Positions 477-13,216 of a stretch of 22,064 nucleotides of DNA are shown here, piece after piece (position 1 is the first letter of the stretch; each line of letters opens with the position of its first letter). The position numbers and the translations under genes were made by a program. The stretch is from a virus: positions 1 to 22,064 of the IMG/VR virus record IMGVR_UViG_3300025131_004465. The stretch is one strand, 5' to 3'. Under the pieces are notes generated by a model. The model saw nothing but the letters and a program-made list of their open reading frames with translations. It had not been told where the DNA came from and made no database searches.

Positions 477-548
477 TATAGCTTCCTTTATCTGTAAGGT
501 GTTTAGCCTGAAAAGTTTACTCACTGCACTACGTTAGAGGAGGCTATA
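477..548. other. Long imperfect inverted repeat between convergent modules
   Basis: Bases 477-490 pair with 535-548 as 14 consecutive pairs, two of them G-U if transcribed rightward. They enclose 44 bases that contain a small hairpin (497-500 with 506-509). The element lies between the holin-like stop and the bidirectional terminator, so both converging transcripts could contain it. The length is tRNA-like, but there is no T-loop or anticodon arm. Confidence 0.4.
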
Positions 549-577
549 AAAAATCACCCATTACAGGGTGGTTTTTT
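548..577. terminator. Bidirectional rho-independent terminator
   Basis: A-run 548-553, TCACCC, six-base loop ATTACA (560-565), GGGTGG, T-run 572-577. The stem is 12 bp with one T-G pair. A's on the left and T's on the right make it work on both strands. It separates the rightward lysis genes from the leftward early operon, whose last stop codon lies inside the T-run. Confidence 0.9.
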
Positions 578-983
578 ATTTCAACTTACAGGTATAACTT
601 GCAATAGACTGTGCCTCTATTTCAGTTATAGACTTGTGAGTCTTTTTAAATTTGACGATGTCTTCAACATTTATCATATAGAATACTTTAGGCTGTCGTG
701 GTTTGTACCACAAAAAAACAGCATAAGCATCTGCATGACAAACTTGTACCCCGTCAAAAGGCTTACGCCCTATATCCAAGTCTGACAATTTATGATAGAC
801 GCAACCCTCTTGGGACATCTCTAACATTGGTATCTGGTGCTCTCTAAAATCGCTTTTAAAATTAACTCTATTTTTTTTAGCTACTTTGTGTTCGAACGTC
901 ATTGTCCAACAAAATTCTCCCTGTTTTCTTTTATTTCTTAACCATTTACAAAAGTCAGCTGTAAATGATTTCTCGTTGTACAT
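576..983 (-). CDS. Putative PD-(D/E)XK-type nuclease (RecU / Holliday-resolvase-like)
   Basis: The 135-residue product carries FEHKVAKKNRVNF (E31-x-K33), then FREHQIPML (H49-Q50), then KLSD and KPFDGV (D68, D77), then alternating hydrophobic strands around AYAVFLWY and VFYMI. An E-x-K strand followed by a HQ motif is typical of RecU-like resolvases and related phage nucleases, which cut branched DNA during recombination or genome maturation. Here the expected acidic residue lies after E-x-K rather than before, so the assignment is tentative or the fold is rearranged. It is the last gene of the leftward operon, downstream of the helicase, which fits recombination or DNA processing. The ATG at 983 has no Shine-Dalgarno. 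Confidence 0.45.
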   Translation of the reverse strand: MYNEKSFTADFCKWLRNKRKQGEFCWTMTFEHKVAKKNRVNFKSDFREHQIPMLEMSQEGCVYHKLSDLDIGRKPFDGVQVCHADAYAVFLWYKPRQPKVFYMINVEDIVKFKKTHKSITEIEAQSIASYTCKLK

Positions 984-1000
984 GTTATTGTTGTTTCATA

Positions 1001-1264
1001 TTACAAACACCTAAATCTCTCTGGCTCTTGTTCTAATCCGAAGTCGGTGGATGAAGAACCAGTAAGTTTTTTTAAAGTCTTAACAATAAGATCTCTCTCG
1101 TCTTTAGTCACAGTCCCCTTGCCACTTAGTTTATTAGTCCACTGTGTTTGCACATCACTAGCTTTTAATCCTAGAGACTGAATAAATGCGTATGGTTTTA
1201 TCCCCTTATGTTTTAATATTGAGGTTGCTTGGCTGTCTCCCCATCTTCTTTGGCTATAATTCAT
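1001..1264 (-). CDS. Small HTH-like protein, function unknown
   Basis: The 87-residue product has a central stretch, ILKHKGIKPYAFIQSLGLKA, followed by WTNKLSGKGTVTKDERDLIVKTL. The pattern of helices and turns resembles a Cro/CI-type helix-turn-helix (short helix, GLKASDV turn, recognition-like helix, then an E-x-x-x-I helix). I do not recognise a family. It starts one base after the helicase stop (helicase ends at 1266) and is followed 17 bases later by the nuclease gene, so it is co-transcribed with both. It could be a small DNA-binding regulator or a recombination accessory factor. Confidence 0.4.
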   Translation of the reverse strand: MNYSQRRWGDSQATSILKHKGIKPYAFIQSLGLKASDVQTQWTNKLSGKGTVTKDERDLIVKTLKKLTGSSSTDFGLEQEPERFRCL

Positions 1265-1265
1265 A

Positions 1266-2633
1266 TTAGTTAATATATTTAATCTCCCACTTCTTCTGTC
1301 TATATAGACTCTGCCTCGACAAAGCTTGTCTATTAAGGATTGGGTTGTAGTTATCTACAATGTCTATTATTTTTGGGTCATTTTTACCTTTAAATATTCT
1401 TAGTATTCTTCCTGCACTTTGGGTGGTAAGTATCTTGCTCTTTAAATCACAGGCAATGATTAACGTATCAAGTGTAGGAATATCAGTACCTTGAGCAAGT
1501 AGATTTGTTGTGCCGAATATTACATTAAAATCCATTAGTCCTTGCTTCATCATCATAAGTTTATCATTTCGTTCGGGGTCTTTACTGTCGATGTAGTATA
1601 CACCATCTACTGTACACATTTGTTTTTCTAAGTTTCTATAGTGTTGGATTCTTTTTGTTAAAACTAATATCTTTTTTCCTTGTAAAATCTCTCCAACTAT
1701 CAAACCATTTATTAAAGTATTTCTACTTTTGTTATCAATCATCTCGTCAATCATCTCGTTGTACTGTGCTAACACGGGTATCTTGGTTTTACTTTTCATT
1801 ATCTCTACCAGTGGTTTTAGTTGTTGAGCTTCGTGGCGTGCAACTGTGTTTCCAAAAAAGAAATTAATTGCCTTACCTTGACCATCTTCTCTATCGCAAG
1901 TTCCGCTACAACCGTAAATATGTTTGGGATTAAATCTACTTATTACTTTTTTATTTTCTTTTGTTATTGTTCCATGAGCTTCGTCGCAAATTAGAATTGA
2001 CGTGTTGTTGACAAGTTGGTTGACAACTTTCTTTTTCTGAGTTGACAAGTTAGTTGTATACAAGCTCTGAAACGTGCTAATCGTTATGTCCTTAACTTCT
2101 TTGTAGCCACCGTGGATTAAGCCAGGTTGATAGTCTAAGAATTTCTTGCACTCCAGCTCCCAGTTAGCTAGTAAGGTTTTATTCGGAACTAAGATTGTTG
2201 CAGTCAGCCCTAAGCGGTGAATCACCTCCAACATTATTATGGTTTTTCCTGATCCAACTGTTGCATCTAGCATTCCTTCGGTACTTTTGCACAGGTTTTT
2301 TACAAGTGGAGCTTGGTAGGGTCTGAGCAGTATGTTATTACTCATTTTTTTTTGTTCAGCTTGTGTTTCTACATAATCTTCCTCTAACTCGTATTGAACA
2401 CTATTTTTGTTCAAGTAAGTTATTAACCTAGTTTTCATGCCCCTAGGGATTTCAAATACTCCATCTTTATCAGAGTAGTATTTTATCTCTGGCTTCATAC
2501 CCCAAATACTCTTTCCCATCCGCTTCATCATGTGGAATTTAGGATTATTCAGCCGTAAGGTCTTCTTAATTATGTTCTTGTACTTCAACGGCAGTCCTGT
2601 GATTTTAATTGTGTTATTTATTTCTATTTTCAT
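1266..2633 (-). CDS. SF2 DEAD/DEAH-box DNA helicase (UvsW/XPB-like)
   Basis: The 455-residue product has all core SF2 motifs: ATVGSGKT (Walker A, residues 124-131), DEAH (217-220), SGT (243-245, motif III), FGTTNLLAQGTDIP (motif V, near 373-386) and QSAGRILR (motif VI, near 405-412). About 100 residues precede the RecA-like core (LLRPYQAPLV is the Q-motif-like region), like the small N-terminal domain of phage UvsW-type helicases. Such enzymes use ATP to move along DNA, remodelling forks or branched recombination intermediates. The start overlaps the upstream stop as ATGA, implying translational coupling. The clustering with a resolvase-like nuclease and an SSB-like protein supports a recombination/replication role. 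Confidence 0.9.
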   Translation of the reverse strand: MKIEINNTIKITGLPLKYKNIIKKTLRLNNPKFHMMKRMGKSIWGMKPEIKYYSDKDGVFEIPRGMKTRLITYLNKNSVQYELEEDYVETQAEQKKMSNNILLRPYQAPLVKNLCKSTEGMLDATVGSGKTIIMLEVIHRLGLTATILVPNKTLLANWELECKKFLDYQPGLIHGGYKEVKDITISTFQSLYTTNLSTQKKKVVNQLVNNTSILICDEAHGTITKENKKVISRFNPKHIYGCSGTCDREDGQGKAINFFFGNTVARHEAQQLKPLVEIMKSKTKIPVLAQYNEMIDEMIDNKSRNTLINGLIVGEILQGKKILVLTKRIQHYRNLEKQMCTVDGVYYIDSKDPERNDKLMMMKQGLMDFNVIFGTTNLLAQGTDIPTLDTLIIACDLKSKILTTQSAGRILRIFKGKNDPKIIDIVDNYNPILNRQALSRQSLYRQKKWEIKYIN

Positions 2634-3190
2634 CTTTTTCTTCTAACAACTATTGAAGATTCTTGATATGTCTCCACCCATTCAGGGCAACTACTATGTT
2701 CTAAATCCCATTCTTTCATTTTGTTCTGCTTGATAGTCACGACATCTCTTAGTGTCGGGTCTTTAGTTCGATACTTGGTAGTAGTTTTTTTGGTATTACT
2801 AGAGTGCTGTGCTTTTTTAATGTTAGCAACCTTATCTTCTACTATTAAATGCGATTCCTGGGACTCACTCATGGCTTTCTGCTCAAGCAATAATTGCTCT
2901 CTCTCCTGTTTTTTGTGGAAAGTGAGCATAGATGCCTTAATTTCATCTAAAACGGCCTTAGCGGACGAAATATGAGGCCTGAAGGCATTATTTATTTCCT
3001 TTTGACGTGCTACCAGAGGCTTAGTCATGGTCTGACGCACCGAATCTATTTCTTTTACTGTTTTATTTATGAATGCAACAGAATCTGAAGCATTGGAATA
3101 GTCCATTTCGGATTCTATTCTAGGTATGTTAACCTGTTCAATCTTGGTTAGCAAAACCTCTGCCTTTGCTGTTTGATGAGCTAAATTCAT
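2630..3190 (-). CDS. Coiled-coil phage protein of unknown function
   Basis: The 186-residue product is highly charged and helical. Residues 1-110 follow the pattern of a widespread phage family: AEVLLTKIEQVNIP, then paired helices with IDSVRQTMTKPLVARQ and INNAFRPHISSAKAVLDEIK, ending in FHKKQERE. The C-terminal third is basic, with TLRDVVTIKQNKMKEWDLEH and a VVRRKR tail. Members often sit beside recombination or SSB genes, suggesting a DNA-metabolism scaffold, but I know of no proven activity. The stop overlaps the helicase ATG by four bases. The ATG at 3190 is preceded by AATAATT and no Shine-Dalgarno. Confidence 0.55.
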   Translation of the reverse strand: MNLAHQTAKAEVLLTKIEQVNIPRIESEMDYSNASDSVAFINKTVKEIDSVRQTMTKPLVARQKEINNAFRPHISSAKAVLDEIKASMLTFHKKQEREQLLLEQKAMSESQESHLIVEDKVANIKKAQHSSNTKKTTTKYRTKDPTLRDVVTIKQNKMKEWDLEHSSCPEWVETYQESSIVVRRKR

Positions 3191-3192
3191 AA

Positions 3193-3375
3193 TTATTCTA
3201 AAACTTCAACTACTAAACCACTTTGCACCTTGCCGTTAGTGATAACCACTTGTGGGCTAAGTGTACAACCGTGTTTTGTGATTAGAGCTTTTAATTCTTC
3301 TCCAAATGCTTCTATCTTTTTCTCTCTCTCCTCGTCTGTTAGTTTTGGTTTTTCTTCTTTTTTTTCTTTTGTCAT
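3193..3375 (-). CDS. Small conserved-style phage protein, unknown function
   Basis: The 60-residue product has a lysine/glutamate-rich N-terminal half (TKEKKEEKPKLTDEERE), a short helix (AFGEELKALITKHG) and a C-terminal beta-like segment (LSPQVVITNGKVQSGLVVEVLE). This layout is familiar from many phage early operons, but no function is established that I can name. It ends 2 bases before the coiled-coil gene and starts 5 bases after the zinc-ribbon gene, so it is part of the same transcript. Its leader is TTTTAAAATAT immediately before ATG. Confidence 0.55.
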   Translation of the reverse strand: MTKEKKEEKPKLTDEEREKKIEAFGEELKALITKHGCTLSPQVVITNGKVQSGLVVEVLE

Positions 3376-3380
3376 ATATT

Positions 3381-3566
3381 TTAAAATGGTACTTTCTGAT
3401 TAATATTAATTATTTGTTTTCGATAAGGGGCGTCGACTTCTTTGCAAGCGGGGCAACGCTTGCGCCACTTCTCGGTGGTCTCAAATTCTTCAAAACATGA
3501 TTGGCAGCTTTTACGCACCGGCATGTAGACAGATTTGAGTTTATTTTTTTCATCATATAATCCCAT
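3381..3566 (-). CDS. Small zinc-ribbon protein starting MGLYDE
   Basis: With the start at 3566 the product is 61 residues: MGLYDEKNKLKSVYMPVR, then a zinc ribbon CQSC ... CPAC (cysteines near residues 21, 24, 38, 41). The frame is open upstream to 3638, but that stretch runs through the structured element at 3577-3667. The MGLYDE start is also shared with the neighbouring OB-fold gene, so 3566 is the better start. Zinc ribbons of this size usually bind nucleic acid or protein. Its position between an SSB-like gene and a conserved small gene fits a replication accessory role, which is inferred. Confidence 0.6.
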   Translation of the reverse strand: MGLYDEKNKLKSVYMPVRKSCQSCFEEFETTEKWRKRCPACKEVDAPYRKQIININQKVPF

Positions 3567-3576
3567 AGATATTTGC

Positions 3577-3667
3577 TTATTGGGGCAGGCAACTGGTTTG
3601 CGGTGGGGGGGCATCGAACCCAGTCCTTCATCACACACACCAGGTTACCACACCACTGCCCCAATAA
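3577..3667 (-). repeat. 12-bp perfect inverted repeat enclosing a tRNA-like remnant
   Basis: TTATTGGGGCAG (3577-3588) is perfectly complementary to CTGCCCCAATAA (3656-3667), enclosing 67 bases. Read on the minus strand, the enclosed DNA has a T-loop-like GGGTTCGATGCCC, a D-loop-like TGGTAACC, and an alternative tRNA-style acceptor (GCAGTGG 3659-3653 with CCACCGC 3606-3600, one mismatch). There is no room for an anticodon arm. A further hairpin, GCAA-ACCAG-TTGC, lies next to the right arm. It may be a degraded tRNA, a processing element or a protein-binding site. Confidence 0.5.
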
Positions 3668-3725
3668 ATTAAAATCATTATTGCCTGCTAGAGCAAAAGC
3701 GTAAACTCTAGCAGAATAAATAATC

Positions 3726-4139
3726 TTAAAGTTCCTCTTCTAAAGAATTTTCTTCATCAAATAGTTTACCTTGGTATTTTTCCAATACATCCATACGAAC
3801 ATCTGTTGGTTTACCATTCTCATCTTTTTCACAGAATACACAGACACTCTTCGCTGGATTTTGTCCTGGTTTTGGGTCAGAGTCCCCAGTGTATTTTACA
3901 CCAACAAAAGTACCTAGTGGTGTATTTTTAAATTGTCCCAGGCTTCTATTTCCTGGACCAACTACATTCCAAGATGCTCCATCTTCATCAACAAGTACAT
4001 AAACATCTTGCATTTCGCCAGGCTTGTATTTGCTTGGCTTTTGATATGTCTCGACATACACACCTTCGTATGTTTTTCCAACTTCGTCCCATTTGGCCCA
4101 ATTGCCTTTTACAATGTTATCTTCATCGTATAAACCCAT
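3726..4139 (-). CDS. OB-fold, SSB-like DNA-binding protein
   Basis: The 137-residue product has a beta-rich core (GKTYEGVYVETYQ, MQDVYVLVDEDGASWNVVGPGN, GTFVGVKYTGDSDPKPGQNPAKSVCVFCE) in the strand order of an OB fold. It ends in an acidic tail, FDEENSLEEEL, like the protein-recruiting tails of single-stranded-DNA-binding proteins. No sequence signature proves SSB identity. The probable role is coating ssDNA and recruiting the helicase, nuclease or primase encoded nearby. It is the first gene downstream of a consensus promoter (4201-4230) and of a hairpin leader (4159-4182), so strong early expression is likely. The N-terminus MGLYDED is shared with the zinc-ribbon gene at 3381. Confidence 0.5.
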   Translation of the reverse strand: MGLYDEDNIVKGNWAKWDEVGKTYEGVYVETYQKPSKYKPGEMQDVYVLVDEDGASWNVVGPGNRSLGQFKNTPLGTFVGVKYTGDSDPKPGQNPAKSVCVFCEKDENGKPTDVRMDVLEKYQGKLFDEENSLEEEL

Positions 4140-4158
4140 AGTGTTAGGATTATTATTA

Positions 4159-4182
4159 CTTAGGTCGAGTGGTCGTCCTAAG
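4159..4182 (-). promoter_or_regulatory. Palindromic hairpin in the leader of the SSB-like gene
   Basis: CTTAGG (4159-4164) and CCTAAG (4177-4182) flank CGA-GTGG-TCG with a single mismatch on each side. That gives a 10-pair hairpin with a four-base loop, lying 20 bases before the ATG at 4139 and about 12 bases after the likely transcription start. It could be an operator for a dimeric repressor or an mRNA-stabilising or translational-control hairpin; the sequence alone does not decide. Confidence 0.5.
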
Positions 4183-4200
4183 CACGCTTTGTTATATTGA

Positions 4201-4230
4201 ATTATAGCACAATATTGGTAGTCTTGTCAA
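4201..4230 (-). promoter_or_regulatory. Consensus sigma70 promoter for the SSB-like/helicase operon
   Basis: On the minus strand, TTGACA (4230-4225), an 18-bp spacer, and TATAAT (4206-4201) are both perfect matches. It lies inside the 3' end of the methyltransferase gene and points at the gene starting at 4139. Just upstream is TTATCCACT (4240-4232), one base from a DnaA box; the promoter at 9107-9135 has a perfect box in the same relative place. Confidence 0.85.
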
Positions 4231-5374
4231 TAGTGGATAACTTTTTCATTATAGCTTCAATTACATTTACAGTCACTGCATTACCTAGACACTTATATCT
4301 TTGTGTGTCACTTACTCCCTCTGTCCAACCATCAGGAAAACCTTGTAGTCTTTCACATTCAGTTGGGGTTAGTCGTCTTATCCTCCTATCATACATAGAT
4401 GTTAAGACGCTCTTACCATTGACTACTTTTCTTTTACCGCTTGTTAGATACGCATCTGGTGTTACAGCATTAGATATCTCCATCTCTACTTCCATACCAT
4501 CGTTTCTTGTTGCTACAAATGGCTGTCTATTGCCACCTTGCATTGTATTAAGTGTTGGGCTTATTCCATCTGTGCCATACACTCTATCGTTGCTGTGTTT
4601 TGGTTTATTTATTTGAATCAAATCCCATGCGTGCTTTTTTGTTAAACTTTTACTGCCCCCCGTTCTGATGGTTTTAGAGAAAGTAGTCGCTCTGTTTGTT
4701 GCTTCGATAGGAAATACTTCTGGTCTACTTGTTCCTCTAAGATGTCCGACAATGAACACTCGCTCTCTGTTTTGGGGGACACCGAAATTTTTGCTGTTAA
4801 GCACTTGCCATTGGATGTCATACCCCAATTCATCAAGCGTGGAGACGATGGTAGTAAATGTTCTCCCTTTGTCGTGAGATAATAACCCTTTGACGTTTTC
4901 AAGCAATAAAAGGCGTGGTTGCTTTTTCCTAATAATCCTAGCGATTTCAAAGAAGAGCGTACCTCTGGTATCGGCAAAACCCCCTCGTTTTCCAGCGATT
5001 GAAAAACTTTGACAAGGAAACCCCCCAACGATAAGGTCGAAGTCTGGGAGTTCTTCTTCGTTGATTTTTGTAATGTCTCCATAGTTTTTGTGGTTAAAAT
5101 GTTTTTGATAGATTTGGATTGCGTATTTATCGATTTCGGAGTAACCCACGCAAGTAGGTTGTCCTTCGTCAGACTCGTCCCCAACGTGTTCGCTAGATTG
5201 TCTGGTCGAGGCTGAAGAACCTTCCCCCTTCGTGGTGAGAAGTCCCTGTCCTTCGTTTCTCTCCGTATCTTCTTGCCCTCTTCGCTCCTGACTTCTCGTA
5301 GTTGTTTCCACATAAGATTGTTTTATTCCTAATTCAAATCCCCCTATACCACTAAATGTTGAAAAGTATTTCAT
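4202..5374 (-). CDS. DNA (cytosine-5) methyltransferase
   Basis: The 390-residue product has the ordered C5-MTase motifs: FSGIGGFELG (motif I, SAM binding), GGFPCQSFS with catalytic Cys121 (IV), ENVKGLL (VI), FGVPQNRERVFIVG (VIII, about 197-210), then the target-recognition stretch, RRLTPTECERLQGFPDGW (IX) and LGNAVTVNVI (X). It transfers a methyl group from S-adenosylmethionine to cytosine and probably protects phage DNA from host restriction. No cognate endonuclease is visible, so it appears to be an orphan. Residues about 22-74, between motif I and CVGYSEID (motif II), form a charged, low-complexity insertion. The start overlaps the upstream stop by four bases (5371-5374). Confidence 0.95.
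   Translation of the reverse strand: MKYFSTFSGIGGFELGIKQSYVETTTRSQERRGQEDTERNEGQGLLTTKGEGSSASTRQSSEHVGDESDEGQPTCVGYSEIDKYAIQIYQKHFNHKNYGDITKINEEELPDFDLIVGGFPCQSFSIAGKRGGFADTRGTLFFEIARIIRKKQPRLLLLENVKGLLSHDKGRTFTTIVSTLDELGYDIQWQVLNSKNFGVPQNRERVFIVGHLRGTSRPEVFPIEATNRATTFSKTIRTGGSKSLTKKHAWDLIQINKPKHSNDRVYGTDGISPTLNTMQGGNRQPFVATRNDGMEVEMEISNAVTPDAYLTSGKRKVVNGKSVLTSMYDRRIRRLTPTECERLQGFPDGWTEGVSDTQRYKCLGNAVTVNVIEAIMKKLSTIDKTTNIVL
4642..5313 (-). other. Long alternative-frame ORF wholly inside the methyltransferase gene
   Basis: A second minus-strand frame, starting at ATG 5313, stays open for 223 codons within the methyltransferase gene. It includes SPKTESECSLSDILEEQVDQ, the other-frame reading of methyltransferase motif VIII, and begins inside the motif I-II insertion. 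Such a long overlapping open frame is unexpected in AT-rich DNA. It could encode a second protein, or it could be a by-product of codon constraints on the methyltransferase. No ribosome-binding signal is seen. Confidence 0.2.
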
Positions 5375-5835
5375 AGTAACTTCTTCATAATTGAATAATT
5401 TACTAGGTCTAGCATCTCATCGTAGATTTCTTTTTCATAATCTATTTTAGAGATGTCCTCATTATGTTCTTTTCTGCCTTTGTCGAACTTAGCAAGGCAG
5501 TCTTGTTTGAATTTATCTAATTGTTGTTCTAGTTTTTGGCGATGAGTTACGCAGTAGTCAATTTCATTAGTATAGTCTAATTTTACTCGTTTTTCTTTGT
5601 AGTTCTTTACAAAAACATTTCCTTTGTGGAAACCAAACCTGGTTGTCCACCTATGCCCTGATTCACAAAACATTGTAATTGTAACCGAGTAGCCACCACC
5701 ATCCCAGTGTTTATGGGTTGTGTGTTGCTTAATTGATTCAATATGGGTACATTCAAACCCGCACTCAGGGCATTTAACTTCTTCACCCCACTCAGGGAGA
5801 ATAGACTCCCCGAACATTTTACTTACTTTCTTCAT
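5371..5835 (-). CDS. Zinc-binding phage protein with a helical C-terminal domain
   Basis: The 154-residue product opens with a zinc-ribbon-like part: CPECGFEC, then HTTHKH, then beta-like YSVTITMFCESGHRWTTRFGFHKGNVFV. Repeated Cys/His pairs and the HKG ending recall a phage protein family of unknown activity. From about residue 90 it becomes helical: KLEQQLDKF, then DKGRKEHNEDIS and YEKEIYDEMLDLVNYSIMKKL. The second part resembles small phage helical domains with an E-x-x-D-E-x-x-D pattern as in MazG-like pyrophosphohydrolases, but the match is weak. It starts 6 bases downstream of the primase-like gene and is coupled to the methyltransferase. The leader is AT-rich (ATTAAAATATATG). Confidence 0.5.
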   Translation of the reverse strand: MKKVSKMFGESILPEWGEEVKCPECGFECTHIESIKQHTTHKHWDGGGYSVTITMFCESGHRWTTRFGFHKGNVFVKNYKEKRVKLDYTNEIDYCVTHRQKLEQQLDKFKQDCLAKFDKGRKEHNEDISKIDYEKEIYDEMLDLVNYSIMKKLL

Positions 5836-5840
5836 ATATT

Positions 5841-6485
5841 TTAATAGTTAATTAACTCGCTTAATGCGGTTTTAAAATCACAATTATAAAGTTTCATATA
5901 GACGGCAATGTTATCGCCGTGGAATCCACAACCAAAGCAGTGGGCTTTGTTGTCTTTGAAGACAAAGAACGATCCGTTTTTTTCGTTATGAAAGGGGCAG
6001 GGGTAGGTAGTGTATTTGTATTGCTTGTTTACCTTTGAGATTCCCATGTGTGCAAGGATGTCATTTATTTGGACATCTGCTATATCTTCCTTGTCTATGT
6101 TTTTATTTGACTTAGGCTTGCCAATAAATTTATATAGGAATCGTTTAAATTTGTTTAGCTCTACTTTAGGCACGCCGTCTTTCTTTTTTTGTTCGTAGAT
6201 ATTCATTATCTCCTCGACGCTATCCATATCTGAAAAAGCATTTATTGCTTCTCTTTCTATCCTCTCACGTTCATCAAGGCATTTTTCACAAGCCGGAAAT
6301 GGGTGGTATTGAGCCAAGCCGGTGTTGCCACAAATTTCACAAACTGTTTTTGTGTCAACCTCAATCGGTGAAAGATTGCGAGCTGTTGGGTCGTATGTGC
6401 CGATTAAAGGGTAGCGTTTATTTTTAGTTCGCATCAATTGCTCGCATTCTTCCTTGAAGCTGAGTTTTTTTGTCTGCGTCGTCAT
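5841..6485 (-). CDS. Primase-like protein with CHC2 zinc finger, no TOPRIM domain
   Basis: The 214-residue product ends with a clear DnaG-type CHC2 zinc domain (residues 160-214): PCPFHNEKNGSFFVFKDN, then HCFGCGFHGDNIAVYM, with ligands C163, H166, C183, C186. An N-terminal zinc knuckle (C49-xx-C52 ... C66-xx-C69) precedes it. In DnaG the zinc domain recognises the primer start site, but the TOPRIM catalytic domain is absent, so any catalysis must come from another protein. The start at 6485 overlaps the DUF3987-like gene by 62 bases. An internal ATG at 6434 (residue 18, MRTKNKRYPL) would cut the overlap to 11 bases and may be the true start. The two genes are probably translationally coupled and act together in priming. 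Confidence 0.7.
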   Translation of the reverse strand: MTTQTKKLSFKEECEQLMRTKNKRYPLIGTYDPTARNLSPIEVDTKTVCEICGNTGLAQYHPFPACEKCLDERERIEREAINAFSDMDSVEEIMNIYEQKKKDGVPKVELNKFKRFLYKFIGKPKSNKNIDKEDIADVQINDILAHMGISKVNKQYKYTTYPCPFHNEKNGSFFVFKDNKAHCFGCGFHGDNIAVYMKLYNCDFKTALSELINY

Positions 6486-7845
6486 AAGATATTATCTTAA
6501 ATGTTTGTTTATTATATTTGCCAACATTTTTTTCAAGTATGTCACCACGGTCGGAGCAAAGCGTTTCGATAGCATCAATAGTGTTGTCTAACCAGAAGGT
6601 TTTTTTATTTGAGTTGGTTGGGGCAAGTGGTAATTCACCAATCTCACCTTTTGACATTTCTTTTTTCTTTAGTAAGTCATAAATTCTTGTTGCGTCGGAA
6701 GGAGCTTTGCGCTCATAAAGTGCTTTGAACTGTTGGCTATAAAATTCTACTTGCTCTCGTGCCAACTCAAAGTCTTCGGCGGTAATGTTGTATTTACCGT
6801 CCATATCCACATCATCGGGGCGAGAGAAAATAGCTATAATCGCCGCCATTCTTAAAGATTTTCTATGCCTGTCCATAAGCTCAGAACGCTTAGCCTCGTA
6901 TTCGTAATCTTTTATTTTTGAAGCCATCTCAAAGTTGTATTCTTCGTAAGCTCGATATGTGTTAACAACATCTTGTGGCACTCCGATAATATTATTTTTC
7001 TGTGTGTTTTTAAAGACTTTACTAAACAACTGTTGTGCTTTTAACAAATGTTCTGAATAGTCAGAGGTGTTGCGTATAAGTTTTGCTTTAGAGATGTTTG
7101 GGTAACAAACGAAAGAACGTCTAGCCAAACCACGGTTGAAAAAGTCTTTTAAGGTTTGGTTCGCACCCTCGTTTTCTAAAAGCCCAGAAAGACTAGAGTG
7201 AACGAGCATTGTTTGGGGTACACCGCTAACAGCGTTGTTTACTTTGGAGCTTTTAATCATTTTGTGAGGGTTGTTACCTTCTTCAAAGGCGTCTTTCAGT
7301 AATGAAATCATATAGATTTTATTTGCGTCTTTGGTACAGATGTAGTCAATGAACTCTGAGTTGGAGAAATGGAGCGAACCAAATTCAGCTTTTTCAAACT
7401 CTTTTCTTAAAGACAGCAACCCCTCGGGGGTGGCATCGCCTATAGTATCGGATAAGTAATAAGGAGTGTTATCAGCGATATAGCCTCTTACTCTTTTAGC
7501 ACTCCAGTCTTGATTCTCAGCGTGTTGGGTATTTGTTTCTTCTGTGTCAGTAATGTAACCTTCCACCCTTGTTTCGATACTGGCTGAAACTTCTTCAAAG
7601 CATTTTTTCATATAGAACAACGCCCTGTCTTTACCAAATCCAGATGGCATAAAAACCATACCATAGATGTTTGGGAAGAGATTTATATCATAGCCTTCTT
7701 TTATTTTAACCCTATTATAGCAAAGAGCTCGTGAGCAAAATGAGTTGAGGGTTAGTAGCAAAACCTCATTTGGAGTAGTGCTATTAGTGGGTTTGAGGTA
7801 ATTTTCTATGATGTTGCTAGCATATTTTGGTAGAGGTATATCCAT
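6424..7845 (-). CDS. DUF3987-like replication ATPase/helicase
   Basis: The 473-residue product has an N-terminal helical part (LLLTLNSFCSRALCYNRV), then NLFPNIYGMVFMPSGFGKDRALFYMKK, a Walker A-like loop with K72 followed by D rather than T/S. The size and the SGFGKD loop fit DUF3987-type phage replication proteins, which often sit beside primase zinc domains and are thought to be helicase/primase-associated ATPases. Residues 360-473 look like C-terminal DNA-binding or winged-helix material (ATRIYDLLKKKEMSKGEIGEL). It is the first gene after the promoter at 7987-8015 and the three-way-junction leader, next to the candidate origin, suggesting loading at the origin. The exact family is uncertain. 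Confidence 0.6.
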   Translation of the reverse strand: MDIPLPKYASNIIENYLKPTNSTTPNEVLLLTLNSFCSRALCYNRVKIKEGYDINLFPNIYGMVFMPSGFGKDRALFYMKKCFEEVSASIETRVEGYITDTEETNTQHAENQDWSAKRVRGYIADNTPYYLSDTIGDATPEGLLSLRKEFEKAEFGSLHFSNSEFIDYICTKDANKIYMISLLKDAFEEGNNPHKMIKSSKVNNAVSGVPQTMLVHSSLSGLLENEGANQTLKDFFNRGLARRSFVCYPNISKAKLIRNTSDYSEHLLKAQQLFSKVFKNTQKNNIIGVPQDVVNTYRAYEEYNFEMASKIKDYEYEAKRSELMDRHRKSLRMAAIIAIFSRPDDVDMDGKYNITAEDFELAREQVEFYSQQFKALYERKAPSDATRIYDLLKKKEMSKGEIGELPLAPTNSNKKTFWLDNTIDAIETLCSDRGDILEKNVGKYNKQTFKIISYDDADKKTQLQGRMRAIDAN

Positions 7846-7859
7846 AATTTTATACTAAA

Positions 7860-7935
7860 AAACCAGCAGGAGAGAATTCATAAGGCAAACAATGGCCTTA
7901 CCTAGCATCGCTGCTTCGGTCTCTTCTGCTGGTTT
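7860..7935 (-). ncRNA. Three-way-junction leader RNA upstream of the replication operon
   Basis: Read on the minus strand: P1 is 16 pairs (7935-7920 with 7875-7860, one C-A mismatch). P2 is AGCA-GCGA-TGCT, a GNRA-capped hairpin (7915-7904). P3 is GTAAGGC with GCCTTAT, with an 8-base loop (7901-7880). P1 is followed by six T's, then AGTATAAAATT and the ATG at 7845. It is therefore the 5' leader of the operon. The T-run after P1 allows an attenuator or riboswitch role. No known class is recognised. Confidence 0.6.
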
Positions 7936-7986
7936 CTGTTTATAAATTTTGGTGGACATATCGATTGTTTTTTTATGAATAGGTAT

Positions 7987-8015
7987 ATTATACTTGTTTT
8001 TTAAGGTCTAGTCAA
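7987..8015 (-). promoter_or_regulatory. Sigma70 promoter for the replication operon
   Basis: On the minus strand, TTGACT (8015-8010), a 17-bp spacer, and TATAAT (7992-7987), the -10 being perfect. Transcription would start near 7980, giving a leader of about 135 bases that contains the three-way-junction RNA before the ATG at 7845. No DnaA-like box precedes the -35, unlike the other two leftward promoters. Confidence 0.85.
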
Positions 8016-8037
8016 GCTGGAGACAAAATGCTGTTTT

Positions 8038-8361
8038 TTGGCTAACTCTTGTAGTTTCACCATGTTGATAAAACTACTTTTGCCCTTTTTTAAGCTAAGG
8101 TTAGCACAGAAAGGGGTAAATCTTAGTTTCACCAACTGATGGGGTCTATTTTATAAAAAATGAGAAATGGCTAAAAATGGTATATATATAATATAATAGG
8201 TATATATATAGATATATAGATATAACTATATAACTTTTACCTTTTTTTTATGTGTAGTTAGCCAAGAATTTAGTTTCACCAACTGTTGATAAAACTAGGT
8301 GAAACTAGGTGAAACTAAACCCATTTTGCATCACAGACTGTACAGTGGTTGATAAAACTAC
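8038..8361. repeat. Iteron-like repeat cluster, candidate replication origin
   Basis: Eight half-sites of TAGTTT(C/T)A(C/T)C lie here: forward at 8053, 8124, 8271; reverse at 8066-8076, 8285-8297, 8298-8307, 8308-8317 and 8348-8360. Forward/reverse pairs form imperfect palindromes at 8051-8077 and 8271-8297. GGTGAAACTA is repeated in tandem with a 10-bp period (8298-8317). TTGGCTAACT (8038-8047) is exactly inverted as AGTTAGCCAA (8256-8265). GCTAAGGTTAGC (8094-8105) is another short palindrome. Between them, 8180-8236 is almost pure A/T. Repeats plus an AT-rich core beside primase and ATPase genes are typical of an origin or operator array. The last half-sites run into the end of the gene at 8315. 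Confidence 0.6.
8180..8236. other. Very AT-rich stretch, candidate DNA-unwinding element
   Basis: A run of TATATA/GATATA units with only a few G or C residues, lying between repeated elements on both sides. Such stretches melt easily and are common at replication origins. Alternatively it may simply be low-complexity spacer. Confidence 0.45.
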
Positions 8362-8509
8362 CATCTTCGTCTATTTTTCTGATTTGAGGTGATTTACAGA
8401 ACTTACAAATAGCCTCTTGTAATTGTCTGTCGTCTTGTTCGTTTTCTTCTCTGGCAAAATTCTCTTCTGCCTGTTGGGATTCTAAAGCCCATTCTGATGA
8501 TTTACTCAT
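8315..8509 (-). CDS. Small zinc-ribbon protein
   Basis: The 64-residue product has an acidic/glutamine-rich N-terminal helix (residues 1-33) followed by a four-cysteine ribbon: CKFCKSPQI ... CTVCDAKWV. The paired C-xx-C motifs indicate zinc binding, probably to nucleic acid or a protein partner. It starts with a four-base overlap with the upstream zinc-ribbon gene (ATGA at 8506-8509). The coding end runs into the GGTGAAACTA repeats, and an iteron-like GTTGATAAAACTA (8348-8360) encodes part of the ribbon. The function is unknown. Confidence 0.6.
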   Translation of the reverse strand: MSKSSEWALESQQAEENFAREENEQDDRQLQEAICKFCKSPQIRKIDEDGSFINHCTVCDAKWV

Positions 8510-8697
8510 AGAAGTTCCCCTCCTTTCGTTTGAGAGAACTCAGCATCACAATCCGGATTATCACATTTTAGATCACCAGTATCGTATGACTCATCTGAGG
8601 AGGTATCAAATATTTTTATTTCTTCTAATTCAAACTCATTGCAAACTGGGCATTGTAGTTTGCCGTCTTCGTTTGTTTTTATGTTTTTGATATTCAT
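8506..8697 (-). CDS. Small zinc-ribbon protein
   Basis: The 63-residue product contains CPVCNEFELEEIKIF, then LKCDNPDCDAEFSQ, a classic ribbon (C-xx-C ... C-x4-C). The central loop is acidic (DTSSDESYDTGD). It resembles short transcription-factor-like or primase-associated ribbons, but no family is certain. It overlaps the 45-codon ORF upstream and the next ribbon gene downstream, each by ATGA, so three small proteins are translated in a coupled series. Confidence 0.6.
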   Translation of the reverse strand: MNIKNIKTNEDGKLQCPVCNEFELEEIKIFDTSSDESYDTGDLKCDNPDCDAEFSQTKGGELL

Positions 8698-8831
8698 AAG
8701 AATTTACTTAGTATTTTATTAAAACGTTCTATTAGTTTATGTCTTCTTTCACTGAACTTTCCTTGCAGTCCTCTAATTATTTGTGTGTTGTTGTACCACT
8801 TGAGATATAGTTTGATGAAGTGTCTACACAT
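8694..8831 (-). CDS. Putative 45-residue basic protein
   Basis: This short frame starts at ATG 8831 and encodes MCRHFIKLYLKWYNN ... KFSERRHKLIERFNKILSKF, stopping at TGA 8694-8696, which overlaps the next ATG as ATGA. The product is basic, with an amphipathic second half (LIERFNKIL). It overlaps the end of the membrane-protein gene by 55 bases in another frame. An in-frame TAA lies four codons upstream, so this ATG is the only one. Support: the coupled overlap fills a gap in an otherwise gapless operon. Against: it is short and unfamiliar. Confidence 0.4.
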   Translation of the reverse strand: MCRHFIKLYLKWYNNTQIIRGLQGKFSERRHKLIERFNKILSKFL

Positions 8832-9001
8832 ATTATTTGATGGTTATAGTGGTCTTGTACCCAACGCATACTAAATAGACTAGCGATGATTAGGAGGCCC
8901 CAACCAATTGTTTTGATTACTTCGTAGGTAGAACAGGCTGGAACTTCATTATCTTCATCATATTTTTTCCAAAACTTCCACCCAAATTTCCTTTTATTCA
9001 T
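8777..9001 (-). CDS. Small single-pass membrane protein
   Basis: The 74-residue product has a basic N-terminus (MNKRKFGWKFWKKYDED), one hydrophobic helix (TIGWGLLIIASLFSM, about residues 31-45) and a polar, Ser/Thr-rich tail. With positive residues before the helix, the N-terminus is predicted inside the cell. It is the first gene after the promoter at 9107-9135, hence early. Small early membrane proteins in phages often act in superinfection exclusion or host takeover, but nothing in the sequence fixes this. Confidence 0.5.
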   Translation of the reverse strand: MNKRKFGWKFWKKYDEDNEVPACSTYEVIKTIGWGLLIIASLFSMRWVQDHYNHQIICVDTSSNYISSGTTTHK

Positions 9002-9028
9002 AAATATTTTGTTAAGAATTATTTATGA

Positions 9029-9072
9029 GGAGCTAGCCAAGTGCCAGCCGTAGCCAGCCAAGTGTTAGCTCC
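9029..9072 (-). promoter_or_regulatory. Inverted repeat with internal direct repeats in the early leader
   Basis: GGAGCTA (9029-9035) and TAGCTCC (9066-9072) pair perfectly. The enclosed 30 bases carry GCCAAGTG twice (9036-9043, 9057-9064) and a GCC-rich centre. The element is in the 5' leader of the gene starting at 9001. It may be an operator or a structured leader; a smaller hairpin (TAAAAC-GCTTT-GTTTTA, near 9081-9097) lies next to it. Confidence 0.45.
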
Positions 9073-9106
9073 CCCCCTGCTAAAACGCTTTGTTTTAACT
9101 ATTGAT

Positions 9107-9143: not shown

Positions 9144-9152
9144 TGTGGATAA
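9144..9152 (-). promoter_or_regulatory. DnaA box TTATCCACA between divergent promoters
   Basis: TGTGGATAA on the plus strand is the exact complement of the DnaA-box consensus TTATCCACA. It sits between the leftward (-35 at 9130-9135) and rightward (-35 at 9169-9174) promoters. A near copy, TTATCCACT, precedes the promoter at 4201-4230. It may let the host DnaA protein affect transcription or a local origin; a chance match is possible. Confidence 0.5.
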
Positions 9153-9260: not shown

Positions 9261-9283
9261 CCTGCTTAACGCACGGCTTTTTT
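9259..9283 (+). terminator. Rho-independent terminator / attenuator
   Basis: AGCC-TGC, loop TTAAC, GCA-(bulged C)-GGCT, then a run of six T's (9278-9283). The hairpin has seven pairs. It lies about 55 bases after the rightward promoter and before any large gene, so transcripts must pass it (antitermination or ribosome effects) to reach the packaging genes; alternatively it ends a short stand-alone RNA. Confidence 0.7.
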
Positions 9284-11181: not shown

Positions 11182-13216
11182 AATTTTAGCAAAAAAATTA
11201 GTAACTAAGGCTATTGAGCAATTATCAGAAGGCTTAGATGCTAAGAAAGACAGGATGGCTACTGTCAAAACCATTATTGATTTGTATAACAATAAACAAA
11301 TCAACCTTAGTGAGAATGACGAGAACCAGACTGATGTAATGAACATCCCTTTTGCTATTATGGCAAAACAGATTGATAGTTATTACTCAAAGATAGATGA
11401 ACCACCAACTTTGAATTTTAAGATTCCTAATAGAAAAAACCTATCAGAGAAAATTAAACAAGCATGGATTCAAGAAAGTAGTTCAACTAGGGGTGGATGG
11501 GCAAGAAAAGATAGAGCAGAAAAGAAAGGTGCGTTACTATCTGGCCGTGGAATTGCCCAGATATACTCAACATCAGTAAAGAATAAGTACAATTCACATT
11601 ATGATGTGGTTGATGTATACAATTTTATAGCTGATCCAGGTCGTGGAGACCTTGAGGCAGGCAAATATCACGGTGAAGTAAACATAGTTAAAACCAAGAC
11701 TTGGCTGAAGAAGATGGTTAAAAAAGGTATTTATGACTCAAAACAAGTAGAGCAGTTATTTAACTGGAACATGAGTACAGCCGAAGATGGTGTTAAAGAA
11801 GCTATTGATAAACAAAAAGAGAGACTTAGTTCATTGAATGTAAAATCAACCAAGAATTTAAATGATGGCTACAACCTAGTCCAATGGATAATGAAACACG
11901 AAGAAGTCTGGTATTACTTGCTATTTGATATGGGTACAGGTATTTATGTCAGATGCGAAGAGCTAAAAGAAGTAACTGCTAGCGGTAAAACACCTTATGT
12001 ATCATGGGCAGTTAACTATGATGAGTACGCTTTCTGGACTAAGGGTGTAGGTGATGACATATTGCCAAGTGCAGAAGCTATTAAATTCCTACTTAACAAT
12101 GCACTTGAAAACGAGAAACGTAGGTCAAGACCAATGAGAATGATAGCTGCAAATGCAGTAGATGATATAAATGAATTGATTGATTATGTACCAGATAATG
12201 TAATTGTAAGTAGAGCTGGGGCAGAAAACAGTATAGTAACAATTGATACTCCAGAGATTAAAACAACAATCCAACTAGCAGAGTTCTTTAATAATTTCAT
12301 GGAAAGTAAATCTGGTGTAGGCGGTCAAGGGACTGATAAACCAGATACTAAAGTAGGAATCTACTATGGAGAACTTGCCCAAGACGCTGATTTGATTGGT
12401 ACAGTGAATAAAGAATACTCAGAAAGTTACGCTGGTAAAGGTTATCGCTTCTTCTGGGGATTGAAAAAAGACCTAACAGAAGTAATGTCACTAGAGATGT
12501 TGGGCAAAGGTGGAATTAAATTGATGGAACTTTCACGAATGGAACTGTCTGATGTTGGTGATGTGGACGATGTAGAAGTAAGTGGAGGAGCTAGAGAACA
12601 AGAAGTTGATGCGGTTAAAAGTGAACGACAAGCCAAAGCTATCGCCGATCTTTCAGGTGCTTACCCAAGCAAACTTAGTCCAGATTGGGTTATAAAGACT
12701 AGATTAAAGAGTGAAGAGTTTACAGACGAGGATATTCAACAGGCTTTAGATGTAGATAGTGTGTTCGATCAAGAACTAATGAACGAAGCTGATGAAGCAA
12801 TCCAACAAATCTTGTTAGGTAACACACCAAAGCTTAACAACGGAGCTACTGTCGCTTTCATGGAAAGAATCCTTAATTATGCAACTAGCAACCTAGATTG
12901 GGTTAAGCTCGATAAGAAAGGAAATGAAACGGGCATTGATCGCAGAAAGAAAGAACAGTTTGATAATTTACTTGCCTATATGGCAGCTCATCAACAGGTT
13001 GCAATAGATAATGGACAAAAGAATTTAAGAGAGCTAGAGGCAAAACAAATGATTTCGGAAGTAGGTGGTAATCCAGGTGGAGTAGATCCACAGCAAACAA
13101 CCATCCAAGAACAGAGACTTGCACTAGCACGGCCTGGTGAAACTACTATTCCACAAGGTACATTACCTGGAACAGCACAAGCAAGCGCACGAATAGCTGA
13201 AACAGTAACTCCTTAA
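11174..13216 (+). CDS. Portal protein
   Basis: The 680-residue product directly follows TerL and has portal-like character. It is mostly helical at the start (LAKKLVTKAIEQLSEGLDAKKDRM), followed by a stretch with HYDVVDVYNFIADPGRGDLEAGKY (near residue 140; the D-P-x-x-x-D-x-x-x-A-x-Y pattern is common in portals of this type). The C-terminus is Gln/Thr/Pro-rich (QQTTIQEQRLALARPGETTIPQG). The portal forms the dodecameric ring at one capsid vertex through which DNA passes and to which the connector attaches. Length and position support the call more than any single motif. Confidence 0.8.
   Translation: MDKILAKKLVTKAIEQLSEGLDAKKDRMATVKTIIDLYNNKQINLSENDENQTDVMNIPFAIMAKQIDSYYSKIDEPPTLNFKIPNRKNLSEKIKQAWIQESSSTRGGWARKDRAEKKGALLSGRGIAQIYSTSVKNKYNSHYDVVDVYNFIADPGRGDLEAGKYHGEVNIVKTKTWLKKMVKKGIYDSKQVEQLFNWNMSTAEDGVKEAIDKQKERLSSLNVKSTKNLNDGYNLVQWIMKHEEVWYYLLFDMGTGIYVRCEELKEVTASGKTPYVSWAVNYDEYAFWTKGVGDDILPSAEAIKFLLNNALENEKRRSRPMRMIAANAVDDINELIDYVPDNVIVSRAGAENSIVTIDTPEIKTTIQLAEFFNNFMESKSGVGGQGTDKPDTKVGIYYGELAQDADLIGTVNKEYSESYAGKGYRFFWGLKKDLTEVMSLEMLGKGGIKLMELSRMELSDVGDVDDVEVSGGAREQEVDAVKSERQAKAIADLSGAYPSKLSPDWVIKTRLKSEEFTDEDIQQALDVDSVFDQELMNEADEAIQQILLGNTPKLNNGATVAFMERILNYATSNLDWVKLDKKGNETGIDRRKKEQFDNLLAYMAAHQQVAIDNGQKNLRELEAKQMISEVGGNPGGVDPQQTTIQEQRLALARPGETTIPQGTLPGTAQASARIAETVTP

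Follow-up and report, generated by a model that had tools for sequence, protein, structure and literature searches.

The SaPI and SCCmec mobile elements, the closest described parallels to the locus analysed here, carry a short-repeat origin directly beside their helicase gene. Their SaPI Rep and SCCmec Cch and Cch2 proteins join an ATPase, MCM-like in Cch or D5-like in Cch2, to a C-terminal double-stranded DNA-binding domain, and SaPI Rep and Cch2 bind the adjacent iterons through their C-terminal domain and are thought to be self-loading (PMC7581432). DUF3987 proteins, which are common in phages, have been listed together with VirE, RepA and MCM as interchangeable putative helicase ATPases, in which a C-terminal winged helix was proposed to serve origin recognition (Kazlauskas et al, PMC5862659). 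This earlier prediction of DUF3987 as a helicase came from domain swapping only (PMC5862659), and in the literature that we searched we found no paper assigning an origin to the family.

We analysed the whole 22,064-bp virus record IMGVR_UViG_3300025131_004465 (hereafter the window), which is probably a fragment of a tailed-phage genome. Its leftward genes (576-9001) include those of an SF2 helicase, a C5-methylase, a CHC2 zinc-finger protein and a DUF3987 protein, and its rightward genes start at 9282 with the terminase, followed by portal-, capsid- and tail-like ORFs, labels that rest on position and relatives. The region 8038-8361, with the DUF3987 gene on its left and a small zinc-ribbon ORF on its right, contains a repeat array that a preliminary description had proposed as a candidate replication origin. 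We conclude that this region is very probably a phage replication origin; that it is an iteron-type origin with the DUF3987 protein as its initiator, a reading in which we infer both the origin role and the binding, appears reasonably likely. The genes and transcription signals to the left and right of the array are:

4202-5374, minus strand: C5-cytosine methyltransferase (PF00145, 4e-90), in the replication-side operon
5841-6485, minus strand: CHC2 zinc-finger protein, primase-associated (PF01807, 3e-14)
6424-7845, minus strand: DUF3987 protein of 473 aa, proposed initiator helicase (PF13148, 6e-7; PHROG 2135, 3e-21)
7856-7939, minus strand: leader-RNA hairpin with a T-run at its end, an inverted repeat between the promoter and the helicase gene
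7987-8015, minus strand: sigma70-like promoter directed into the helicase gene, TTGACT-17-TATAAT (11 of 12 consensus matches)
8315-8509, minus strand: zinc-ribbon-like small ORF, containing S8 and part of S7 (see below)

The array had been described as lying beside primase and ATPase genes. The ATPase gene does adjoin it, whereas the presumed primase gene, the start of which overlaps the end of the DUF3987 gene (6424-6485), shows a CHC2 zinc finger alone, no Toprim domain being detected in its product by the domain scan. One relative of the window (L009, see below) encodes at 497-1444 (minus strand) a primase in which, contrary to the DnaG order, Toprim precedes the CHC2 zinc finger, and comparison of the window CHC2 protein with the C-terminal part of this primase gives 26%. 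For the zinc-ribbon-like ORF, neither a Pfam family above its cut-off nor a PHROG match was obtained.

The region 8038-8361 itself contains the following elements:

8038-8047, plus strand: left arm of a second inverted motif, TTGGCTAACT, exactly two copies in the window
8052-8062, plus strand: iteron site S1, TAGTTTCACCA
8066-8076, minus strand: iteron site S2, TAGTTTTATCA, forming an inverted pair with S1
8094-8105, no strand: GCTAAGGTTAGC palindrome that shares the GCTAA core
8124-8134, plus strand: iteron site S3, TAGTTTCACCA
8171-8250, no strand: A/T run with the lowest stability of any 80 bp in the contig, proposed DNA-unwinding element
8256-8265, minus strand: right arm of the second inverted motif, TTGGCTAACT, the other of the two copies
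8271-8281, plus strand: iteron site S4, TAGTTTCACCA
8287-8297, minus strand: iteron site S5, TAGTTTTATCA, forming an inverted pair with S4 and first of a triplet with a 10-bp step
8298-8307, minus strand: iteron site S6, TAGTTTCACC
8308-8317, minus strand: iteron site S7, TAGTTTCACC, overlapping the stop codon of ORF 8315-8509
8350-8360, minus strand: iteron site S8, TAGTTTTATCA, inside ORF 8315-8509

Eight copies of TAGTTTYAYC(A) thus occupy 309 bp (8052-8360), and the eight half-sites, palindromic pairs and 10-bp-spaced tandem copies of the preliminary description were all recovered by direct reading of the sequence, at a density beyond that of shuffled sequences. The inverted pairs S1/S2 and S4/S5 measure 11+3+11 and 11+5+11 bp, respectively, and S5, S6 and S7 follow each other head to tail with ends at 8297, 8307 and 8317, i.e. 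in exact 10-bp steps, close to one turn of the helix. All eight sites agree in TAGTTT, their first six bases, in the A at position 8 and in the C at position 10. One copy had been placed inside the zinc-ribbon gene; this holds for S8 and has to be corrected for S7, which reaches into the same gene at its stop codon. Over the whole 22 kb, TAGTTTYAYCA is found seven times against 0.22 expected, six of the seven in the array, and none of 100 shuffles reached seven matches. The remaining match (13135-13145, portal gene) is consistent with chance, given the 0.22 expected. A free 10-mer test, independent of the chosen word, gave the same picture: allowing up to two mismatches on both strands, the best word in 8038-8361 has eight copies, compared with a maximum of seven, seen three times, in 1000 Markov shuffles, and with up to one mismatch it has five copies compared with a shuffle maximum of three.

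The array brackets the A/T run, the stability of which (-75.2 kcal/mol) compares with a contig mean of -101.4 (s.d. 6.3); by our own arithmetic, the chance that the least stable 80 bp falls inside a 309-bp array is ~1.4%. With a GC content of 11.7% over 8172-8231, the stretch is indeed almost pure A/T, as first described. The TTGGCTAACT inverted repeats are also present, but they flank the left half-array plus the A/T run and leave the five right-hand sites outside; the GCTAAGGTTAGC palindrome may be due to chance. That the repeats are unlike standard DnaA boxes proved correct, since the consensus TTWTNCACA occurs at the chance rate in the window (four found, 4.0 expected) and, by pattern count, never inside the array, and we rejected a DnaA/oriC-type origin because the array holds no cluster of such boxes. 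A single perfect DnaA box, TTATCCACA, is located at 9144-9152 (minus strand) in the divergent intergenic region, near a promoter TTGACA-17-TACAAT (9135-9107). Three features of iteron origins are seen together at this locus: a clustered word beyond chance, an adjacent easily melted segment and a location at a helicase gene.

DUF3987 was the only one of the families considered, DUF927 and D5/Primase_Cterm included, to be recognised at its Pfam cut-off in the product of 6424-7845; the annotation of PHROG 2135 is DNA primase. In the predicted structure (mean pLDDT 83.7; model from 49 sequences), residues 7-379 form an MCM-type AAA+ core, for which all 50 listed structure matches are MCM helicases (Z 16.5-18.1, over about 255-289 residues), and the sequence-only match to MCM, at E 0.09, is a hint. 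Folded alone, the C-terminus gives a winged helix (about 384-453; pLDDT 76, best Z 8.5) with a match list of mainly winged-helix domains, and this C-terminal domain is predicted to be a DNA-binding winged helix. An alignment-based search gathered 137 distant DUF3987 relatives (80 kept). Among the invariant residues are S68, G69, K72, E164 and A241-R242-R243, which would correspond to P-loop, Walker-B-type and arginine-finger elements. The P-loop of the family ends in GKD instead of GKS/T. Direct protein scans returned no close relatives of the DUF3987 and CHC2 proteins in viral contigs, and none of the DUF3987 protein in genome contigs.

Judged from the predicted structure, the window follows the plan of SaPI Rep and of SCCmec Cch and Cch2, an ATPase with a C-terminal DNA-binding domain, and shares with these systems the setting in a mobile element and a candidate short-repeat origin directly beside the helicase gene. 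It differs in its ATPase, which is DUF3987 and not DUF927 or D5, in the position of the candidate origin, upstream of the helicase gene and not downstream, and in its neighbour, which is CHC2 and not an AEP primase or CCPol. The window replicon resembles theirs in plan, and its helicase is not a member of their helicase families. Lambda-type origins are alike in having iterons next to an A/T-rich segment within the replication module, and repeat-containing O genes are found in two terminase relatives of the window (L190 and L198); in contrast, the window array brackets the A/T run where lambda iterons lie to one side. We rejected a lambda O-type origin for the window, as the proteins scanned include no recognisable O protein (no PF04492, Phage_rep_O, match) and the array is mostly intergenic. 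Iteron plasmid origins of the RepE/RepA class and the PLE RepA_N origin (PMC7145576) share the clustered repeats, the A/T-rich segment and a self-encoded initiator gene, the last as proposed for the window, and differ from the window in that its scanned proteins gave no recognisable Rep_3 or RepA_N protein and no host DnaA boxes lie in the array.

The N4 gp43-like DUF3987 proteins of Schitoviridae and kin have a homologous core (~20% identity, individual matches at 16-24%) that keeps the P-loop SGxGKD and the ARR motif. They differ in being ~730 aa long, with an extra C-terminal region, from its motifs a putative primase domain, before which the window protein ends. Near the DUF3987 genes of these N4-type phages (L042-L125), no iteron array was found within the stretches examined, where only short repeats reached five copies; iteron binding is thus not a general property of the DUF3987 family.

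We then compared the array with those of relatives collected by terminase (about 57-76% identity), a comparison that covers few genomes and includes many contigs of insufficient length for a judgement. In L009 (TerL 70%), nine AGGTATGGCA-type sites, distributed over the two strands, surround an A/T run that is the second least stable 80 bp of that contig; the array lies ~350 bp from a VapE helicase gene. L030 (TerL 57%) has eight TTGGCARGTC sites just after the gene of an AAA_25 ATPase with a C-terminal HTH, and none of its six least stable segments falls inside the array. The L190 and L198 iterons lie inside lambda-O genes (PF04492, 2.6e-26 and 1.3e-25), and L023, L130 and L154 have related replisome-organiser genes: an 11-bp GGACAACAAAC iteron is common to L023 (8319-8356) and L130 (about 2800-2840), inside homologous organiser genes, and a looser version occurs in the organiser gene of L154 (about 7505-7555). 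Strong repeats in L025, L136, L150, L154 (at 1901), L171 and L174 were not counted as origins, being regular coding repeats, and the distant terminase kin Nitratiruptor NrS-3 and Manatee Spring ctGfd272 were set aside for their other gene layouts by annotation.

The repeat word therefore differs with the initiator class (DUF3987, VapE, AAA_25 with HTH, lambda-O or organiser) and is kept where the initiator is kept, a pattern predicted by cognate origin iterons and not by transcription operators or packaging sites. Each array stays at the helicase or initiator gene, at a variable distance from the terminase. These same-design arrays beside the relatives' own initiator or helicase genes support the original reading of the region as an origin, and the pattern of sequences suggests that related phages may exchange origin and initiator together while the terminase is kept. 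The checks named in the preliminary description came out mixed. One of them concerned conserved repeats in relatives: at this position the word is shared by none of them, and the analogous arrays of the terminase relatives, with their other words, are what swapped origin-initiator cassettes would give. Pattern scans of viral and genome contigs for a TAGTTTYAYC(A) array gave only chance matches in unrelated genes, and a blastn search with 7990-8520 found no match in phage or plasmid records.

Strong leader hairpins precede the genes adjoining each of the origin-like arrays of the window, L009 and L030. The 143-nt leader of the window helicase gene (7840-7982, minus strand) has an MFE of -41.6 (z -5.0), and the T-run that ends its hairpin resembles a terminator or attenuator; the others are found at 8995-9102 (minus strand, z -4.4) in the window, at 2690-2830 (minus strand, z -5.5) in L009 and at 1255-1398 (plus strand, z -3.5) in L030. 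No Rfam family matched the window leaders at a gathering score, and three miRNA-family scores at the window leader, weak and far below the cut-off, were dismissed.

The main rival to the DUF3987 protein as initiator accepts the origin and assigns its recognition to another protein, perhaps encoded outside the incomplete contig, which would bind the iterons and load the DUF3987 helicase, much as lambda O loads DnaB. The N4-type DUF3987 phages without such arrays near the gene, the lambda-O or organiser-type initiators used by several terminase relatives and the probable fragmentary state of the 22-kb record all speak for a separate initiator. We nevertheless regard it as unlikely, though not to be neglected, since the replication-side proteins scanned include nothing recognisable as O-like, DnaD-like or RepA_N-like, a predicted DNA-binding winged helix is already present in the DUF3987 protein, and no other long gene lies as close to the array as the DUF3987 gene.

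Less probable still is that the array provides clustered operators for a phage transcription regulator of the leftward replication operon, the A/T run being a promoter-region feature only. Inverted half-sites would suit a dimeric regulator, and the first array site is 37 bp away from the strong promoter (8015-7987); yet the promoter core is free of sites, the 309-bp spread of the sites extends into coding sequence, the window proteins scanned include no recognised regulator, and in the terminase relatives the equivalent arrays adjoin or lie within initiator genes, among them lambda-O genes, for which origin function inside the O gene is established in lambda. Operator and origin roles may coexist in the array, as iteron initiators often autoregulate. 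A packaging (pac/cos) or partition (parS-like) site, suggested by the terminase genes ~1.3 kb to the right of the array, is very improbable, given that the L009 and L030 arrays lie ~2.1 and ~2.9 kb from the small-terminase position and still adjoin the helicase gene, that no ParA/ParB was recognised among the window proteins scanned and that the array brackets an unusually unstable segment.

Under bidirectional replication, a strand-composition switch is expected at the origin as a supporting feature, not a defining one, and such a switch at the candidate origin was not borne out: the plus strand has a positive third-position GC skew by about 4-5 kb and keeps it up to 9.6 kb, with no change of sign at 8.2 kb. 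At third positions, the coding strands of the DUF3987 and CHC2 genes are C-rich (plus-strand skew of +0.32 and +0.35, respectively), and the far-left genes have a skew of opposite sign. Small, mosaic or unidirectionally replicating genomes may lack such a switch, and its absence here may reflect unidirectional replication, a recently acquired cassette or an origin elsewhere. Besides the skew, the lack of arrays at the N4-type DUF3987 loci examined, the failure to find this word in other sequences searched except by chance, and the L030 array without one of the least stable segments of its contig count against the proposed reading. Note that the CHC2 and DUF3987 genes (5841-7845) overlap and have their unusual skew in common, as if acquired as a cassette.

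Returning to the DUF3987 protein as initiator, the window, L009 and L030 have three alternative ATPases, each beside its own array, and on this ground we propose the DUF3987 protein as the recogniser of TAGTTTYAYC(A). The SaPI/SCCmec precedent (PMC7581432) and the winged-helix proposal (PMC5862659) further lead us to propose it as both origin recogniser and replicative helicase. Three binders had been suggested, zinc-ribbon, HTH-like and ATPase proteins; the ATPase appears the best candidate because its C-terminus is a predicted winged helix, and nothing found in this analysis supports the zinc-ribbon protein. The DUF3987 protein would assemble on the TAGTTTYAYC(A) sites through this winged helix, the sites on both sides of the A/T run positioning two ATPase rings that would melt 8171-8250 and move outward as replicative helicases, and the CHC2 protein would take part in priming; we infer the binding, the melting, the two-ring loading and the order of events. 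In its fullest form, which we put forward tentatively and hold at a little short of even, the proposal makes a stand-alone DUF3987 protein of a phage the self-loading MCM-like initiator helicase of its own palindromic iteron origin, recognised via the C-terminal winged helix, in a lineage that swaps origin-initiator cassettes (DUF3987, VapE, RepA-like, lambda-O, organiser) behind a conserved terminase.

If true, no origin would have been assigned to the DUF3987 family before this one, as far as our literature search found. The locus pairs a DUF3987 protein, with its predicted MCM-like fold and winged helix, with a compact candidate origin, and as its sites are defined to the base, binding, unwinding and loading are directly testable. 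The exchange of origin and initiator behind one terminase would provide a natural series for the evolution of initiator specificity.
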